Of a stretch of DNA of 22,305 nt, positions 1 to 21,788 are shown one piece after another. The stretch is from the IMG/VR virus record IMGVR_UViG_3300029267_001817, positions 1 through 22,305 of that record; one strand, given 5' to 3'. Position 1 is the first letter of the stretch, and every line of letters starts with the position of its first letter. Under the pieces are notes generated by a model, which worked only from the letters and a program-made list of their open reading frames with translations, did not search any database and was not told the DNA's origin. The DNA comes from a virus. The position numbers and the translations under genes are program-made.

Positions 1-121
1 AGGAATTAGGCCTTCCTTATAACGCGCTTCAAATATTTTTCTACTAGGGGAAATATTTCTTATGGCCCTAACAATTTAATAGGGGCCCACATAGAATAGA
101 ACGATCGGGTGGTAAGATACC
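1..121. other. Non-coding hairpin-rich region at window edge
   Basis: No credible gene lies here. Several inverted repeats are visible: AGGAA (1-5) with TTCCT (13-17); AAATATTT (31-38) with AAATATTT (51-58), an 8-bp stem over a 12-nt loop; and GGCCCTA (64-70) with TAGGGGCC (80-87), a 7-bp stem with one bulged G. An AT-rich stretch at 73-81 (AATTTAATA) could be a TATA box for the transcript carrying the structured element just downstream, but this is weak. Together with that element it forms a leader of about 300 nt before the first gene. It may also contain the 3' end of an element cut by the window edge. Confidence 0.45.
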
Positions 122-192
122 ATACATCCCATAGCCTAATGGTAACCATAGGGGCATGGGGCCTATGTATCTCTATCACTGTCTATCGTCGC
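122..192 (+). promoter_or_regulatory. Structured leader element, copy A
   Basis: One of three related elements in this window. The inner hairpin is CCTAATG (135-141), loop GTAAC, CATAGG (147-152), with one bulged A. It is enclosed by outer stems ATACAT (122-127)/ATGTAT (165-170) and CCCAT (128-132)/ATGGG (156-160). Downstream comes the conserved box CTATCAC (173-179), four variable bases, TATCG (184-188). Hairpin start to box start is 38 nt, exactly as in copy B. A further hairpin TCGCTT/AAGCGA (about 189-205) follows only in this copy. It lies about 115 nt before the small membrane-protein gene at 306. Likely a cis-acting RNA; function unknown. Confidence 0.6.
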
Positions 193-305
193 TTCTCGTA
201 AGCGATTACGTAGGGTCGATATCCTATTACACGTACGTTGTGATACATGGATACCCGCAACATGTTTTACTGAGAGAAAATCAATTGAACAGGAGGCAGA
301 AATAT

Positions 306-4552: not shown

Positions 4553-5895
4553 GTGACGAAAATTTTTGGACTAATTCACTTCGGCGTCTAGTCGGTACAG
4601 ACAATAAGCCAAAAGAACAGAAAACAAAACCGAAAGGTTATTCGGCACGAGCGAATGAACGTGTGACTGAGTTCTTTGCAGACAAGCCTCGCAACGTTTC
4701 GCATCTTGACGAAAATTGGAATATTTATTCTCAGTCAGAAGTTCCGTATGCTGCAGTGACTGCATTGTCTTATAATGCTGTAGGCGACTGGCGTGTACGT
4801 TGTGAGGACGAGAAATCGAGAGAGTATATTTACGATTTTCTTCGTCTAACTGATTTTGATAGCGTTGTTTTGGATGTTATCAGAGATTGTTGCGTTTTTG
4901 GAGATGCGTTCGTTGAGAAAGTATATTTCAGCAATGGCGATTTGGCTGAATTAAAATTACGAGACCCAAGAACATTTCAAATCAAGATTGATGCGAAAGG
5001 AGATGTATTGGGTTATGTACAAACTGTGAAGACTGGCGATGGTTCAAAAACTATTGAATTGAAACCTGAAGAAGTTGTTCATTATCAATTGTTTACTATC
5101 CCTCATAGTCCTTATGGGCTTGCTCTCATTGACCCTTCAAGGGATACAATGAAAAGAAAGACTGTAGCTGACGAGGGTATTACAGCTGCGATGGATAGGC
5201 ACGGTTTTCCAAAGTATCACATTAAATTAAAAACACCTAAGGGTTACGAAGATGAAATACCATCGTCAACTGAGATTGACAGTATTGCATCTGATTTCAA
5301 GAACTTAAATTTAAAAAATGAGATTGTAACGTCTGAGTTAATTGAGATTACACCATTAGACGTTAAAGGTATTCAGAATGTTGAAGAATACTTTAATTAT
5401 TTCCAAAGTTCAGTTACTTGTGGTGTCTTAGTTCCACAGGAAGTCTTAGGTCTTGGTAGTGGCTCAACTGAAGCAACTGCAAGAGTAAGACGATTAATGT
5501 TTGAGAAGCTAGTTCGTGGTTTCCAACGAAAGGTAGCTCGTACGACTGAAATCAATGTATTAGAAGAACTTGCTCCTGATAAGAAAGCACGTATCATCTT
5601 TGCAGATTCAGTACCAGAAGATGACGCAATATTAGCTGAAAGCATACATAAACTTATGCCAAGAGGCGACCCATTCGCAATCTTAACAAGAGATGAAATA
5701 CGAGAACGTTTAGGATATCCACCAGTAGTAGTTGCAAATCAAAAGCGCAAAGCTATCTATAATAAATATGGAATATCTAGTAAAGCTGATGAGATGGAGC
5801 AACCAACGAATGGGACACAAGTCGACGACTTACAACAGACACTGAACAGGTATTCTAGTAAAGTTGAAGATTACTTGCGAGATTATGTTGAATGA
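4549..5895 (+). CDS. Portal protein
   Basis: 448 residues, typical of HK97/SPP1-like portals. Diagnostic stretches are VRDCCVFGD-type wing sequence (DVIRDCCVFGDAFVEKVY, about 102-119), LRDPRTFQI, a conserved EEVVHYQLFTIPHSPYGLALIDP segment, and the stem/clip region with PQEVLGLGSGSTEATARVRRLMF. The ring sits at one capsid vertex, nucleates assembly, and docks TerL. It starts within the terL stop codon (ATGA) and its own stop overlaps the MuF gene start in the same way, so the three products are translationally coupled. Assignment rests on sequence pattern, length and gene order. Confidence 0.92.
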   Translation: MSDENFWTNSLRRLVGTDNKPKEQKTKPKGYSARANERVTEFFADKPRNVSHLDENWNIYSQSEVPYAAVTALSYNAVGDWRVRCEDEKSREYIYDFLRLTDFDSVVLDVIRDCCVFGDAFVEKVYFSNGDLAELKLRDPRTFQIKIDAKGDVLGYVQTVKTGDGSKTIELKPEEVVHYQLFTIPHSPYGLALIDPSRDTMKRKTVADEGITAAMDRHGFPKYHIKLKTPKGYEDEIPSSTEIDSIASDFKNLNLKNEIVTSELIEITPLDVKGIQNVEEYFNYFQSSVTCGVLVPQEVLGLGSGSTEATARVRRLMFEKLVRGFQRKVARTTEINVLEELAPDKKARIIFADSVPEDDAILAESIHKLMPRGDPFAILTRDEIRERLGYPPVVVANQKRKAIYNKYGISSKADEMEQPTNGTQVDDLQQTLNRYSSKVEDYLRDYVE

Positions 5896-7340: not shown

Positions 7341-7847
7341 ATGGAATTAAATTACAAAAAGAAAAGTAACAATATCTTGAAGGACGTTATTTATCATGAC
7401 GTCACTATTTTGAGTAATGGAGTATGGGACCAACAGGATAAAAAGTCGAGAGTCTTTTATCCTGAAGAGGTTCTACATAGGGATGCTAAAAATTGGAAGC
7501 GAAATTTCATTTACGCCAAACATACATCAAGGAAAGATGGAACGCCAGAAAGCGCTTTCAATATTGTTGGCTTTGTCGAAGACCCACATTACAGTAACTT
7601 GCGAAAAGCAATCGTTGCTGATTTGAGGATACTTGGGTCAAAAAAAGAAATAATTGAATATATTGACAAAGGCATCATACGTTTTTTGTCACCTGAAGTT
7701 TGGACAGATGACCATTACAGCTATACAAAAAATTCACGTATAGCGACAAAGTTGGATTTTAACGGTGTTGCATTAGTAGTAGACAATCCAGCATGTAAGG
7801 AATCAGAGATAAATAGACACAGAAAATCGCTTGTTAATTCAACCTAA
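7341..7847 (+). CDS. Small head-protease-like protein (DUF2213-like)
   Basis: 168 residues. The pattern RVFYPEEVLHRDAKNWKRN, then YAKHTSR with H61, NIVGFVEDPHY, KAIVADLRIL and IDKGIIRFLSPEV with S117 matches the layout of prohead proteases of the DUF2213/assemblin-like type, where His and Ser about 55 residues apart form the active site. A second, clearly different prohead protease is encoded at 8480, with the same His-Ser spacing. This one has no scaffold region. The ATG at 7341 is chosen over the TTG at 7329 because of the TATA-to-start distance. The stop codon lies inside the first hairpin of structured element C. Family assignment is by motif pattern. Confidence 0.6.
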   Translation: MELNYKKKSNNILKDVIYHDVTILSNGVWDQQDKKSRVFYPEEVLHRDAKNWKRNFIYAKHTSRKDGTPESAFNIVGFVEDPHYSNLRKAIVADLRILGSKKEIIEYIDKGIIRFLSPEVWTDDHYSYTKNSRIATKLDFNGVALVVDNPACKESEINRHRKSLVNST

Positions 7848-7920
7848 TGGTATAACATTAGGCTTACATTTAATTAACTCTAACGCCGCGTTTCGGCGCT
7901 ACAACAGCGTATCGACGTTG
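7833..7920 (+). promoter_or_regulatory. Structured leader element, copy C
   Basis: The most regular of three related elements. The inner hairpin is a perfect 7-bp stem, CCTAATG (7843-7849)/CATTAGG (7856-7862), loop GTATAA. The outer stem is GTTAATT (7833-7839)/AATTAAC (7872-7878). An extra hairpin CGCCG (7884-7888)/CGGCG (7894-7898) is found only here and accounts for most of the longer hairpin-to-box distance (56 nt against 38). The box is CTACAAC (7899-7905), AGCG, TATCG (7910-7914). CAAC (7902-7905) can pair with GTTG (7917-7920). The stop codon of the upstream gene is inside the inner hairpin. A TTTAATTAA at 7869-7877 could alternatively be a TATA box. Confidence 0.65.
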
Positions 7921-8479: not shown

Positions 8480-10006
8480 ATGCCAATGCCGAAACCCGTA
8501 CCAAGTGATACACAAGAAATGTTTAATTCACGTTGTATGTCAAATTCCACAATGGTGGCAGAGTATCCAGACAAAAAACAAAGGTTTGCTGTCTGCCAGT
8601 CGTTATGGGAAAATAAAGGAGATAAAAAGATGACAAAGAAGTCAGATACACCAAAAGCAACAGTTATCCAAAGAAAGGGTAGACGTATTATTGGTGGTTA
8701 CGGTTCATTCGTCATGGTAGACTCTGACAACGATATGGTCAACAACGACGCTCTTAAAACTGGGCTAAAGAAATTTATGTCCAAGAAAAACAAAGATTAT
8801 CGAAACATCATGTGGTCTCATGAAGGCATACAAGTTGGAAAGGTTATCGAAGGTTACGGAAAACACAAAACGCGCGTTGACGACAAAGGGCTTTACATCG
8901 TTGCAGAAGTTAGAAACGATATTGAGTCTGCAGATAGAATCTGGAATGCAATATTGTCTGGTGACTTGAATGCATTTTCAATTGGATTCGAACCATTGCA
9001 ACGAATGAAACACACGAAAGAAAGTGGTGAACATTGGAATGAAATAACAGAGATAAATCTGTTAGAGGTATCAATTTGTGAGATGCCAAAAAATGCTTTA
9101 TCACGGTATACGATTCTTTCAAAAAGTAAAAATGTTATAAAAGATGGAGAAGGCAATGTGATGACTGAAAAAACAAAAGTCAAAGCACCTGAGGACGAAC
9201 CAGAAGACAATCCCGAAGACATGCCAGAGGATAAACCCGAAGACATGCCTGAAGATGAAACTGATGAACCTGAAGACGATGATGAGGAAACTATGTCCGA
9301 TTCGAAAAGTAAGGTTGACACAATTATTTCATTGATTAAGGATTTGTCTGTGGACGAACTTGCCGAACTTAACTCTAAGATGCAACCACAAACAAAGAGT
9401 GAAGTTTCTATCGACGAAATACGAGACGAGTTAAAAAATCTTCAAGAGAAGGACGATATTAAAGGCATCGACTTATCTGAGTTAGCAAGATTAGTTACTT
9501 CATACGAAACTGGCACATCTGCAAAGTCGTACGCGTTACCACGAATTGCTGACGGTAAATTGGACTGGCATTCTGCTATTTCAAAATCTATTGATAACAT
9601 TACTGAACAAATGAAAGATGTCGTTACAAACAAATCGAAGATTAATAACTTAGAACTCGAAATCTCAAGGAAGGCGGAAGAAGTGGAAAACGCAAAGAAA
9701 GAGGCTGAAGAAGCAAAACAGGAAACAGCACAGGCTGAGAAAAAAGTAGAGCAAGCTGTCGAAGAAAAACAAGAGGTTGTTAAAACAGCCGAAGCCGACA
9801 GACAGGTTCTCGACGAAGTACAAAAATCTATGAAGAGTCTCGATGAAACTCTTCGCAACTTCGACAATCGTTTAGAAAAGCTCGAGAAGGTGAAGGTAAC
9901 TAAAACTGAAGCTACTGGACAACCTACTAAAGAGCAATTGTTGAATGATTATCGACCGTCAAATGTCATAGAAGATAGAGATATGGTAGAAATACAGGTG
10001 GAATAA
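8480..10006 (+). CDS. Prohead protease fused to scaffold protein
   Basis: 508 residues in three parts. Residues 1-50 form a small module with CM and AVC motifs (FNSRCMSN, YPDKKQRFAVCQSLW) often seen before phage proteases. Residues 51-215 are a U35/HK97-type prohead protease: H114 in MWSHEGIQVGK, S167 in NAFSIGFEP and E196 in LLEVSICEMP fit the catalytic set. Residues 228-508 are an acidic scaffold: Pro-Glu-Asp repeats (about 235-275), then long charged coiled coil (about 290-460). Internal in-frame ATGs with good SDs at 8630 and 9161 fall exactly at the two domain borders, so separate protease and scaffold products are possible, as with lambda C/Nu3. It directs capsid assembly and is then degraded. 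The stop shares a base with the next ATG. Confidence 0.88.
   Translation: MPMPKPVPSDTQEMFNSRCMSNSTMVAEYPDKKQRFAVCQSLWENKGDKKMTKKSDTPKATVIQRKGRRIIGGYGSFVMVDSDNDMVNNDALKTGLKKFMSKKNKDYRNIMWSHEGIQVGKVIEGYGKHKTRVDDKGLYIVAEVRNDIESADRIWNAILSGDLNAFSIGFEPLQRMKHTKESGEHWNEITEINLLEVSICEMPKNALSRYTILSKSKNVIKDGEGNVMTEKTKVKAPEDEPEDNPEDMPEDKPEDMPEDETDEPEDDDEETMSDSKSKVDTIISLIKDLSVDELAELNSKMQPQTKSEVSIDEIRDELKNLQEKDDIKGIDLSELARLVTSYETGTSAKSYALPRIADGKLDWHSAISKSIDNITEQMKDVVTNKSKINNLELEISRKAEEVENAKKEAEEAKQETAQAEKKVEQAVEEKQEVVKTAEADRQVLDEVQKSMKSLDETLRNFDNRLEKLEKVKVTKTEATGQPTKEQLLNDYRPSNVIEDRDMVEIQVE
8618..8632 (+). promoter_or_regulatory. Internal RBS and start at the protease domain border
   Basis: GGAGAT (8618-8623), then 6 nt, then ATG (8630-8632) in frame with the long gene (codon 51). 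This SD is better than the one before the annotated first ATG at 8480, where only a weak AGGATT is seen. The start would remove the 50-residue CM/AVC module. Confidence 0.5.
9146..9163 (+). promoter_or_regulatory. Internal RBS and start at the scaffold border
   Basis: GGAGAAGG (9146-9153), a 7-nt spacer, and an in-frame ATG at 9161 (codon 228), placed between the end of the protease domain and the acidic scaffold. Use of it would give a free 281-residue scaffold, like lambda Nu3 made inside gene C. Purine-rich coding sequence can mimic an SD, so this is a prediction. Confidence 0.5.
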
Positions 10007-10461
10007 TGACTGATATAACGGCATTCCCAACAGCAACAAAGCGGATTCTCGTACATGGCGATAATTCATATACATTTACAGTTGGGTCTGAAGCAATTAA
10101 AGCTGGACAAGTTGTAGGTATTGCATCCAATGGTGGTGACTTTACAATAACTCCTTGTAATTCAGCTGATGCCGTATGTCCTATTGGTATTGCAGACCAC
10201 GCAGCAAGTTCAACTGAAACACTTACCGTACATATGTATGGTACGGTGTGTAAAGTCTTTAATGAGGACGATACTACAGCTATTGAAGCTGGTACCGAAC
10301 TCAAACAAGGAACAGTTGATGGCGCTGTATGTGCCGCAACGCCTGGTGGAGCAACAGAATATCTTGTGGGTATTGCACTCGAAGATATTCCAGCAACTGC
10401 AGCAGGTAGTTATGGTGGTGGAAACGCATTAATTTGTCCACATATCAATACTATTGCATAG
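10006..10461 (+). CDS. Capsid decoration protein, paralogue 1 (DUF2190-like)
   Basis: 151 residues, beta-rich, Cys-containing. Shared landmarks with the next two proteins are an N-terminal ITAFP, EAIKAGQVVGI (about 28-38), a PIGIADHA strand, and FNEDDTTAIEAGTEL (about 84-98), ending in LICPHI. The overall pattern (AI-x-AG-x-x-V, G-x-A, G-T-x-x, DDTTAI-x-x-GT) resembles DUF2190/capsid-cement proteins that bind the outside of the capsid. ATG overlaps the scaffold stop (TAATG) with SD AGGTGG. First of three tandem copies; the order just before the major capsid gene fits a decoration role. Confidence 0.7.
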   Translation: MTDITAFPTATKRILVHGDNSYTFTVGSEAIKAGQVVGIASNGGDFTITPCNSADAVCPIGIADHAASSTETLTVHMYGTVCKVFNEDDTTAIEAGTELKQGTVDGAVCAATPGGATEYLVGIALEDIPATAAGSYGGGNALICPHINTIA

Positions 10462-10470
10462 GTGATATAA

Positions 10471-10920
10471 ATGACAGCAATAACTGCATTCCCAGATAGA
10501 CATACTATTTTAGAGACCGACCCACAAGTTGCAAATCTTTTAACATATACAGCATCTGAAGCTATCTACGCAGGGCAGGTTGTAGAGGTAGACCCTACAA
10601 CTGGTGACCAATATGTCACACCTGGCGACTCTGATGATGCAGCACCAGTTGTTGGTGTAGCATTATATGGAGTTGCTTCATCAGGCGACCCTGTCACTGT
10701 AGCAGGCCCAGGATGTGTTTGTTACGTTGCAAACGAAGATGATACGACTGCAATCAACGAAGGTACTTATTTGACTTTGTCAGATAACAACGTTGGTGGT
10801 TGTGTCAAAGCAACTGTAACTGGTGCAACTCAATATATTGTTGGCGTCGCTTTAGAAGAAATCGCTGCTGATGGTTGGGGAAGAGCCTTAATTATGCCAC
10901 ACGAACAGGTGATTGCTTAA
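10471..10920 (+). CDS. Capsid decoration protein, paralogue 2 (DUF2190-like)
   Basis: 149 residues. It aligns along its length with both neighbours: MTAITAFPDRHT, SEAIYAGQVVEV, a PVVGVALYGVASSGDPVTV strand pair, YVANEDDTTAINEGTYL and a closing RALIMPHEQV. Divergence from copy 1 is substantial, so the duplication is old rather than an assembly repeat. SD AGGTGAT lies 5 nt before the ATG; the stop overlaps the start of copy 3 (TAATG). Probably forms hetero-oligomers or occupies different capsid positions, which is inference. Confidence 0.7.
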   Translation: MTAITAFPDRHTILETDPQVANLLTYTASEAIYAGQVVEVDPTTGDQYVTPGDSDDAAPVVGVALYGVASSGDPVTVAGPGCVCYVANEDDTTAINEGTYLTLSDNNVGGCVKATVTGATQYIVGVALEEIAADGWGRALIMPHEQVIA

Positions 10921-11354
10921 TGACAAACGTGACAGTAATTCCTGACATCACAACTCGAGTCAGGGTACACGGAAACAACGCATTATCTTTTTATGCTGCT
11001 GAAGCAATTAAAGCAGGAGCCGCAGTCACAATTGATGACGACGGCTATGCACAAAATTGTAATTCAGGAGATGCAAAGATTCCTATTGGCGTTGCAGACT
11101 TTGGCGTAACCTCATCAGGTGATGAAGTTACAGTCAATACTATTGGAACGGTTTGTTATGTAGCTAATCTCGATGACACAACTGCAATTGGAGAAGGAAC
11201 TACATTAGTAGCGACTTCAGTTGATGGTGTTGTTGCAGCATTAGCAGGCGGTGACGATTCTGATGAGTATGCACTTGGTGTATCACTCACTGACATTACC
11301 GGTGGCGGCTTTGGGCTTTGTTTAATACGACCTTACCTTAGTACGACAGCTTAA
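10920..11354 (+). CDS. Capsid decoration protein, paralogue 3 (DUF2190-like)
   Basis: 144 residues from the ATG at 10920, which shares its A with the preceding stop; SD AGGTGAT precedes it by 6 nt. Landmarks: EAIKAGAAVTID, PIGVADFGVTSSGDEVTV, YVANLDDTTAIGEGTTL, and LCLIRPYL at the end. The first line, VTVIPDITTRVRVHGNN, is nearest to copy 1 (RILVHGDN), while the middle is nearest to copy 2 (SSGD-x-VTV), as expected if the three arose by successive duplication. A T-rich terminator-like stretch follows. Confidence 0.7.
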   Translation: MTNVTVIPDITTRVRVHGNNALSFYAAEAIKAGAAVTIDDDGYAQNCNSGDAKIPIGVADFGVTSSGDEVTVNTIGTVCYVANLDDTTAIGEGTTLVATSVDGVVAALAGGDDSDEYALGVSLTDITGGGFGLCLIRPYLSTTA

Positions 11355-19056: not shown

Positions 19057-20768
19057 TGGCACATAGTATTTCAACGGGTGCGTCTATAAACTATGGATAT
19101 CCGTTTGCAGCAATGGGTCACGATAGAGTCTCAATCTCATCATATTCTGTTATTCCTGACGATGGAACAATATCTTTTTTTGAGGCGTCAGTGAACTCAA
19201 CAGCTTCGACTTGCGACCTCTATTTTGAGAATGTTGATGGAGCAGAAACAGCAGGCGTTACAGGATTACATTCAACAGCTCAGTATAAACAAAATACATC
19301 AGACACAGTTTCTGTTTCAGCTGGCGACCGTTGTAGGGTTGTTCCTGCAGGTTCTGGCTCGTCTTCAACATTTATGTGGAACTATAGATTTCAGTCGTCA
19401 AACACTAATTGTGCACAAGTATTATGTGCTTATCATAGATGGCGCATTTTATGGTGGATGACTCCTCACTATGCAGCAATTCTTGGAGATATGGATTCAG
19501 AGATTGGCGGTACGTCTGAAGTTAATATGCAAAGACCAATGCCAACGTCTGGTACATTCAAAAACTTATATGCTGATACTGACCAATTGGATGATTACGC
19601 AACTGTTGTATTACGAGTTAATGGTTCTGACACTGCATTAACAGTTACAGTTCAAAATGATGAATATCAAAAAGCTGATACTACAAATGAAGTTCATGTA
19701 GATGCTGGCGATTTAGTTAATTACAAATTGACTAATTTATGTTCAAGAGGAGAAATTGCATTAGGAATCACGTTCGTACCTGATACATCTGGCGAATCTA
19801 TCATGTTAGGTGGTACGACTGAATGGCGTAGTTATGCAGATGGCAATCAATTGGATAATGTATATGAATGGGATTGGGTTGACACTGGAACATTATTTCC
19901 AAATTTAGCTAGATTACAAAAATTCTATACATATGCAAATGTCGTTAACTCAGCAGATTTCTATATCACTAAGACTGATTATGTTACAACTGGAATGTTG
20001 CATAATGCACATACTTCTGCTGGACAATCATTAGTTTCAGATACTTCATCAATATACTTTTGTGATTCTGGAGATGGATACGTATTCAGATTCGTCCCTG
20101 GCGGGGGTGGAGTATATCAAGTACTTTGGGGCTTTGTCGTTGTTACATTAAGTCCACAGACATTCACTGAGACAGTCGTTTGCAATGATGATAGTTCTGT
20201 TGTTCAAGAATTGTATCGAACATTAGAAGAAACAATCGTTTCACTTGCGTTAATGGTAAAACGTGCAACTGAATTTCCATTCCATTATTTCGAAGTTTTA
20301 GATGCTTCACAATTTACAATCAATGAATCTGACGTTTTAGGACTTTCTTCAATAACTGAAGATGATTCATCATTGAGAAATCACGTAACAGTAGTTGGCA
20401 GTAGTGTGTCAGTTACGACAACTGATTCAGTTTCAATAAACGAATATGGCACGTATACGTATAAGTTGACAGATGATAATATTACGACAACTGCTGATGC
20501 TGAGTTATTAGCTGGTCGTATCTTAACAGAATATTCGTATCCAAAGAAACGAGGTTCAATTACAATCAACGGAAAACTAGATATTGATGTAGCAGAACAA
20601 TTTACTTTAAATCTTCCGAACATAGGAATTACAAATGAGAAATTCCAAATTGTTCAATACGCACATAACATAACAAACGCAGGTTTTTACACAACTATCC
20701 AGTTTGGAGCACTTGACTATGATATTGCACGAGAAATCGCTGTTTTAACAAGAGAGGTACGTGAATAA
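19056..20768 (+). CDS. Baseplate hub C-terminal half fused to large beta-rich domain
   Basis: 570 residues. Residues 1 to about 360 form a beta-rich region with at least two, probably three, similar units (for example GTISFFEASVNSTASTCDLYF with DTVSVSAGDRCRV, and GTFKNLYADTDQLDDYATVVL with VHVDAGDLVNYKL), resembling jelly-roll tail-tip repeats. About 405-570 is the second half of a hub protein: FHYFEVLDASQFTINESDVLG, LRNHVTVVG, YGTYTYKLTDDNITTTADAELLAG, LNLPNIGITNEKFQIVQYAHNI and IQFGALDYDIARE. So a beta-rich module sits between the two hub halves. It probably forms the tail tip and may contact the host. The last base of its TAA stop is followed at once by structured element B. Confidence 0.68.
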   Translation: MAHSISTGASINYGYPFAAMGHDRVSISSYSVIPDDGTISFFEASVNSTASTCDLYFENVDGAETAGVTGLHSTAQYKQNTSDTVSVSAGDRCRVVPAGSGSSSTFMWNYRFQSSNTNCAQVLCAYHRWRILWWMTPHYAAILGDMDSEIGGTSEVNMQRPMPTSGTFKNLYADTDQLDDYATVVLRVNGSDTALTVTVQNDEYQKADTTNEVHVDAGDLVNYKLTNLCSRGEIALGITFVPDTSGESIMLGGTTEWRSYADGNQLDNVYEWDWVDTGTLFPNLARLQKFYTYANVVNSADFYITKTDYVTTGMLHNAHTSAGQSLVSDTSSIYFCDSGDGYVFRFVPGGGGVYQVLWGFVVVTLSPQTFTETVVCNDDSSVVQELYRTLEETIVSLALMVKRATEFPFHYFEVLDASQFTINESDVLGLSSITEDDSSLRNHVTVVGSSVSVTTTDSVSINEYGTYTYKLTDDNITTTADAELLAGRILTEYSYPKKRGSITINGKLDIDVAEQFTLNLPNIGITNEKFQIVQYAHNITNAGFYTTIQFGALDYDIAREIAVLTREVRE

Positions 20769-20834
20769 CGCTATCCTAATGGTAACATATAGGGCAGGGC
20801 GTTAAAGTGCTTCTATCACCGCGTATCGTGCGCT
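20766..20834 (+). promoter_or_regulatory. Structured leader element, copy B
   Basis: Inner hairpin CCTA-ATG (20775-20781), loop GTAA (a GNRA tetraloop pattern), CAT-A-TAGG (20786-20793), with one bulged A on the 3' side. Outer stem TAACGC (20766-20771)/GCGTTA (20799-20804), beginning in the upstream stop codon. Box CTATCAC (20813-20819), CGCG, TATCG (20824-20828). Hairpin-to-box distance 38 nt and box spacing 11 nt are identical to copy A. An SD-like AGAGAGGGT follows at once and the ATG is at 20850, so the element occupies the whole intergenic space before the LamG gene. Confidence 0.65.
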
Positions 20835-20849
20835 AGAGAGGGTATATAC

Positions 20850-21788
20850 ATGACGGTTAATGATAATAGATACTACTTGACATTCGATGGAAACAACGAT
20901 TATATCGAATTTGACTCGAATGAAAGTGTAGCAGGTCTTTCTACATTCACAATTTCATTATGGGCTCGACCGGATACGTTCGAATCAACTGACACTATTT
21001 GGAACGAATCATACACAACTTACAAACAAAATACGTTAACTGGAACTGATTGGACAACAAGGTCGAACAATACAGGGACAGCATACACATTAGCAACTCC
21101 AACGATAGGGACTGGTGACTGGCATCACATTGCATTTGTATACGACGCAGTAAACAATGAAAAAAGCATTTATGTCGACGGTTCAAGAGAGGCATATACA
21201 AGTCAAGCATTAAGCGCATTATCTTCAGGACGAGATAAGTTGCGTGTTGGATATCCTCTTTCAGGAGATACTTATTACGATGGTCGAATCGATGATATCA
21301 AAATATACAATACTGCATTAAGCGCATCAGACATCGATAGTTTGGCAAATAATTCAAGACCTCAAACAACACCATTATATCATTGGAAATGCAATGAACG
21401 TACAGGAACATCATTGAATAATGCAATGACTTCAAATGATAGCACATTAGTTGGAGCAACTTGGGGTTATGAGTTAAGCCCGATTGGGTATAACACTGGT
21501 CATAACTTTAGTATTGGTCTATCATTTATTGTTCCTGCAGTTACAAAGGACTGTTTGTACGACCAAATCAAATATGCAGGAAGGATTGGAACGATTTCAA
21601 CAGCATTAGGACAAATCGAACACTATGATACTACGACAGATGATTCAAATACATTGTCTGTAGAGTTATCAAATTGTCCAGAAAAACGTGACACGTCATT
21701 ATCGATATACGTCGAAAACTATTCAATACAACATGTGAGTAGTATTTCAGACACATACATTATCGATATTTCAGGATATACGAGTTGA
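20850..21788 (+). CDS. LamG/concanavalin-like tail protein (receptor-binding candidate)
   Basis: 312 residues. Residues about 5-175 are a LamG-like beta sandwich: YLTFDGNNDYIEFDSNESV, FTISLWARPDTF, WHHIAFVYDAVNNEKSIYVDG, YDGRIDDIKIYNTALSASDI. These are the signature strands of the LamG_3 group, which often binds sugars. Residues 180-312 are a second beta-rich part without recognised family. No signal peptide. Position after the hub and before a beta-helix protein suggests a tail-tip or fibre protein that binds host glycans. Structured element B lies directly in front. Confidence 0.8.
   Translation: MTVNDNRYYLTFDGNNDYIEFDSNESVAGLSTFTISLWARPDTFESTDTIWNESYTTYKQNTLTGTDWTTRSNNTGTAYTLATPTIGTGDWHHIAFVYDAVNNEKSIYVDGSREAYTSQALSALSSGRDKLRVGYPLSGDTYYDGRIDDIKIYNTALSASDIDSLANNSRPQTTPLYHWKCNERTGTSLNNAMTSNDSTLVGATWGYELSPIGYNTGHNFSIGLSFIVPAVTKDCLYDQIKYAGRIGTISTALGQIEHYDTTTDDSNTLSVELSNCPEKRDTSLSIYVENYSIQHVSSISDTYIIDISGYTS

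Follow-up and report, generated by a model that had tools for sequence, protein, structure and literature searches.

Organization of the viral genome

The window, that is, the whole stretch of 22,305 nt analysed here (IMG/VR record G000), is a fragment of a tailed virus. Its genes run in one direction and encode terminase, portal, Mu-F-like, prohead protease, HK97-type capsid, tail tube and tail proteins. Blastn of the window against the phage collection gave no match. Among 50,697 phage records, the capsid protein matches tailed viruses of haloarchaea only, with 23–28% identity, so an archaeal host is likely. Three IMG/VR contigs belong to the same species (99.98–100% identity), while the nearest relatives found are four contigs with capsid identity of 68–70%. 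Positions 548–640 of the window contain a T-run (ATTAATTTTTTTTCGG) followed by TTTATATTATTTT; over 66 nt, this stretch shares ~76% identity with a gap in the relative G004 (L082, near 356–740), and it is probably a terminator together with an archaeal-type promoter that serves the late genes.

Three related copies of a tip and a box

The sequence CCTAATGGTA is found exactly three times in the window, at positions 135 (copy A), 7843 (copy C) and 20775 (copy B), and all three IMG/VR contigs of the species carry the same copies. Each occurrence sits in a hairpin closed by AGG, which is followed by a conserved box. All copies lie on the + strand, outside genes or at gene edges. The features are as follows.

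101..195, + strand: copy A as a whole, a long imperfect hairpin (101–189) with tip and box; fold z −3.5 (131-nt stretch), and the model matches
135..152, + strand: tip hairpin of copy A, CCTAATGGTAACCATAGG
173..195, + strand: box of copy A, CTATCACTGTCTATCGTCGCTTC
7833..7917, + strand: copy C as a whole, outer helix (7833–7839/7872–7878), tip and two tandem boxes
7843..7862, + strand: tip hairpin of copy C, CCTAATGGTATAACATTAGG, which holds the TAA stop of the upstream gene (7845–7847)
7880..7901, + strand: box 1 of copy C, CTAACGCCGCGTTTCGGCGCTA, the actual counterpart of the A and B boxes according to the alignment and the A+B model
7899..7917, + strand: box 2 of copy C, CTACAACAGCGTATCGACG, a tandem second box
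20753..20835, + strand: copy B as a whole, two helices (20753–20760/20807–20814 and 20766–20771/20799–20804), tip and box
20775..20793, + strand: tip hairpin of copy B, CCTAATGGTAACATATAGG
20813..20835, + strand: box of copy B, CTATCACCGCGTATCGTGCGCTA, followed directly by a ribosome-binding stretch and the ATG at 20850

The tip pattern common to the copies is CCUAAUGGUA...AGG, with the conserved 22-nt box directly on its 3′ side; the box consensus is CTAWCRCYGYSTWTCG, then CGCT. The sequence, order and spacing of the tip and the box are kept, whereas the intervening letters vary. Specifically, the distance from the start of the hairpin to the box is 38 nt in copies A and B and 37 nt in copy C, and the corrected two-part pattern consists of the tip, 37–38 nt, and the box CTANCNCNGNNTNTCG.

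Over 26 fixed positions, A and B agree at 23, B and C at 23, and A and C at 20, whereas in 200 dinucleotide-shuffled windows no copy found a match better than 19/26. When a sequence-only model is built from two copies, it retrieves the remaining one: the model from B and C finds A with an E value of 1.8e-5, and the model from A and B finds C with an E value of 0.011 (the next unrelated + strand match has E=4.2). Since the match lies beyond all shuffles and the two-copy models recover the remaining copy, the three copies are related, or held by the same constraint, which bears out the family of three proposed in the preliminary description.

The register of copy C had to be revised. The A+B model, built with C unseen, aligns to 7841–7898, and box 1 of this copy aligns with the boxes of A and B as CTAACGC-CGCG-TTTCGG-CGCTA. 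The box first assigned to 7899–7914 is the second of two tandem boxes with a 19-nt period, and the 'extra GC hairpin' thought to explain a longer spacing is box 1 itself. Additionally, L021 contains GGTAACCATAGGGG at 4705–4718, which matches copy A over all 14 nt and lies in a gap of 76 nt ahead of the gene of a membrane-anchored surface protein. This is possibly a partial fourth copy; no box follows it, and it was dropped from the count.

Position of the copies relative to genes

Each copy runs in the direction of transcription and is placed either in the interval from a stop codon to the following ribosome-binding site or in the leader. Downstream of position 641, copies C and B occupy two of the three gaps of at least 70 nt between predicted genes; the remaining one is at 2440–2515 (76 nt). 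The distance from the box to the ATG of the next gene is 14 nt in copy B and 32 nt in copy C, and the outermost 5′ arm of copy B overlaps the last codons of the upstream gene. That all copies directly precede structural or membrane genes, as proposed, is broadly true of B and C, while copy A lies ~110 nt upstream of the ATG of a small, probably membrane protein. The frame of this protein (156–512) is open back to an ATG at 156 within copy A, which would give 118 instead of 68 amino acids, so the start of the gene is uncertain. Leader peptides starting from the ATG of the tip were considered and rejected, as they would have 20 (A), 8 (B) and 2 (C) codons and show no conservation.

Predicted RNA structure

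An outer helix is seen in all three copies, at a distance that differs from copy to copy. The best helix of copy A is AGATAC/GTATCT (115–120/167–172), which replaces the outer stem first described for it. With position left free, shuffles give a helix of equal length in 7.4% (A), 5.8% (B) and 3.2% (C) of cases, and Fisher's method, applied to the longest helix of each copy, gives a combined p of ~0.007 for three copies from one virus species. The nested helices differ in letters among the copies and pair in each. A covarying outer stem had been taken as the mark of RNA. What stands of this claim is a helix in all three copies with its combined p; the single p values are 0.03–0.07, and the positions of the helices differ. 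The covariation argument was therefore overstated, and reading RNA from the outer stem is only weakly supported. RNAalifold on a MAFFT alignment leaves the outer arms unaligned, and its structure was left out of the evidence.

Compared with shuffled flanks, the folding energy is low in copies A (p=0.013) and B (p=0.003) but not in C (p=0.74). As read from the sequences, self-folding of the box is good in copy C, fair in B and poor in A. In copy A the box instead pairs with a further 5′ arm (101–114), giving one long hairpin from 101 to 189; no single structure thus fits all three copies. The tip of copy C forms a 7-bp perfect stem. A pseudoknot pairing between GGUA of the tip and UAUC of the box is possible, and both sides are nearly invariant across the three copies. 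The predicted accessibility of the ribosome site follows no consistent pattern, with a mean unpaired value of 0.5 (A), 0.44 (B) and 0.18 (C). Together, the predicted helices and energies lend modest support to an RNA structure.

The non-coding leader around copy A

Copy A is located at the 3′ end of a gene-free stretch of ~770 nt (L012 1741–2512), of which window 1–305 is the 3′ part. This leader contains two homologous domains, at L012 1830–1883 and 2035–2088, which are 73% identical and are each enclosed by arms that are unrelated but complementary (1778–1791/1881–1894 and 2019–2037/2118–2136, respectively). A third stable domain lies at L012 2137–2267 (z −3.2), and the z values of the stable domains reach −4. 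The leader domains match no Rfam family, one pattern found none of them in other viruses, and blastn of the leader against the phage collection gave only short chance-level matches. ARAGORN found no tRNA in the window; a tRNA-Ser (TGA) gene lies at L012 171–257, upstream of the non-coding region.

Absence from the relatives and from the collections searched

The element is missing at sites B and C in L024, L025 and L027, and L028 has site C without it. At site C, the gap to the next gene is 102 nt in the window versus ~30 nt in L024, L025 and L028; the upstream protein ends with V and a stop in the relatives, while in the window it continues with N-S-T to a stop within the tip. At site B, the gap is 81 nt in the window versus 1–2 nt in L024 and L025. 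Beyond copy B, window 20850–21788 encodes a LamG-like domain and a C-terminal part of ~80 residues, which in the relatives is matched by a short protein encoded separately; by this comparison, the gene has apparently gained a LamG-like N-terminal part adjoining the element.

Copies in relatives had been named beforehand as the test of the element, and this expectation failed: a covariance model scan of the four relatives' records found no copy in any of them, and in 2.9 million IMG/VR contigs five two-part patterns gave, beyond the same species, chance matches only, mostly in coding sequence. One pattern run on 85,000 prokaryote genomes yielded two chance matches (Alteromonas and Bacteroidales) in which the structure is absent, and blastn of copy B against the phage collection gave short chance-level matches only. 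By these searches, the element is restricted to one virus species in the collections covered, and its gain in this lineage would be the simplest reading. Since none of the four relatives has a copy, late genes of this type are able to function in its absence.

No Rfam 15 family matched the window at the gathering score, and the related contigs gave tRNA only; matches below the threshold have E values of ~3 or more and cover short, unrelated stretches. This agrees with the earlier view of an apparently undescribed hairpin-plus-box element before genes. Known self-cleaving ribozymes, T-boxes and riboswitches were rejected, as no Rfam match was found. A likeness of ACCGCG to the T-box motif was discarded; copy B shows it, copy A does not. 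The core sites of integron attC do not fit.

A candidate intercistronic RNA element and its rivals

The layout of a stem, a tip and a box, followed by a ribosome-binding site and an ATG, would fit an RNA element between cistrons that defines either an mRNA end or the point where translation of the next gene starts. Our first, still tentative choice is that the copies form one family of cis-acting RNA elements between late genes, which would control processing, or the start of translation, of the gene that follows. Read as RNA immediately ahead of a gene, the element would set the expression of that gene, either by marking an end for RNA processing or stability, or by isolating the ribosome-binding site of the next gene from the upstream cistron; a viral or host protein may recognise the tip and the box. 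We infer in this proposal that the element is transcribed, folds, binds protein and controls expression. More broadly, the copies are a real, new and lineage-specific repeat family, for which an RNA function is plausible.

As conservation is mainly that of letters, the main rival is a double-stranded DNA site, in which the tip and the box would bind a viral transcription factor as parts of late promoters or operators. We regard this as possible, if somewhat unlikely. The letters are conserved more than the pairs, copy C's box forms an almost perfect dyad (TAACGCCG-N5-CGGCGCTA), and the two boxes of this copy are 19 bp apart, near two helical turns. In addition, a tailed virus of haloarchaea whose capsid protein is distantly related has 28 transcription units, as well as an internal promoter inside one of its genes (PMC12542753). 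However, an archaeal TATA-like box occurs at no constant distance (none in A, 7 nt before the ATG in B, inside C), the dyad is poor in copy A, and the 7-bp perfect stem at the tip of copy C is what an RNA would have.

The second rival, which we consider unlikely, is a small non-autonomous mobile element (MITE-like or a single-strand hairpin) that inserted three times and has no regulatory role. It would account for the extra DNA at sites B and C, a presence/absence difference between the window and its relatives at orthologous sites, and for copies that have diverged as if inserted at different times. Against this, target-site duplication does not exceed chance (flanking direct repeats, p=0.25, 0.03 and 0.15), the outer arms AGATAC, TAACGC and GTTAATT are unrelated and so provide no common terminal inverted repeats, all copies have one orientation, and other viruses and the 85,000 genomes hold no copies under the patterns used.

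A processive antitermination or anti-pausing RNA acting on RNA polymerase is improbable. HK022 put sites are two-hairpin antitermination RNAs that act on bacterial polymerase, and the element resembles them, by analogy only, in its length of ~70–85 nt and in a stem-loop with a second stretch able to form a hairpin immediately behind it, a two-part layout with an adjacent box hairpin in B and C. Its location in a long late gene run and the T-run downstream of copy A's gene, in the stretch common to the relative G004, would suit such a role. In contrast to put sites, the copies lie inside a gene run and the box of copy A forms no second hairpin; moreover, the probable host is archaeal, with a different termination machinery, and the relatives do without the element. 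Finally, chance similarity of unrelated intergenic stretches is very improbable, because, although a 10-mer shared three times in 22 kb is not rare alone (by a rough estimate, ~1–2 such triples are expected), none of the 200 shuffles reaches the two-part match of any pair, and the leave-one-out models recover the third copy.

Comparison with known systems

GOLLD and ROOL are large, ornate, structured non-coding RNAs found in phages and classified in Rfam. Copy A recalls them in lying within a ~770-nt non-coding region with repeated domains, on a contig that has a tRNA gene, but there is no Rfam match at the gathering threshold, and none to these families at E values up to 10.

Nearest in layout are the start-associated sequences and ESAS of cluster K mycobacteriophages, which are short repeats within one virus group that precede some of the genes, mostly in gene orientation, and contain imperfect inverted repeats with a variable spacer (PMC3203893). 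ESAS carry a 13-bp sequence (GGGATAGGAGCCC) at the start codon, occur in 11–19 copies per genome and are conserved across the cluster, and their function is unproven (PMC3203893). As in ESAS, + strand repeats stand before + strand genes, with helices in each of the three copies. Unlike ESAS, the element has 3 copies, another sequence and a variable distance to the start, and it is absent from the nearest relatives. In the three copies, the interval from box to ATG does not contain the 13-mer, and the element is therefore not a member of this family.

A wider version of the RNA reading is doubtful: the element may represent a new class of small structured cis-regulatory RNA, recently acquired, that sets single late genes within the polycistronic transcript of a probably archaeal tailed virus and is part of a larger set of structured RNAs in the ~770-nt leader. 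If read as RNA, it would offer a compact handle on the tuning of single genes inside the late transcripts of such viruses, and the four relatives without it constitute a natural experiment. To our knowledge, few cis-acting RNA elements have been described in tailed viruses of archaea.

Apart from the element, the window encodes three consecutive related small proteins at 10006–11354, of which the relatives likewise have three copies; these are possibly capsid decoration proteins.
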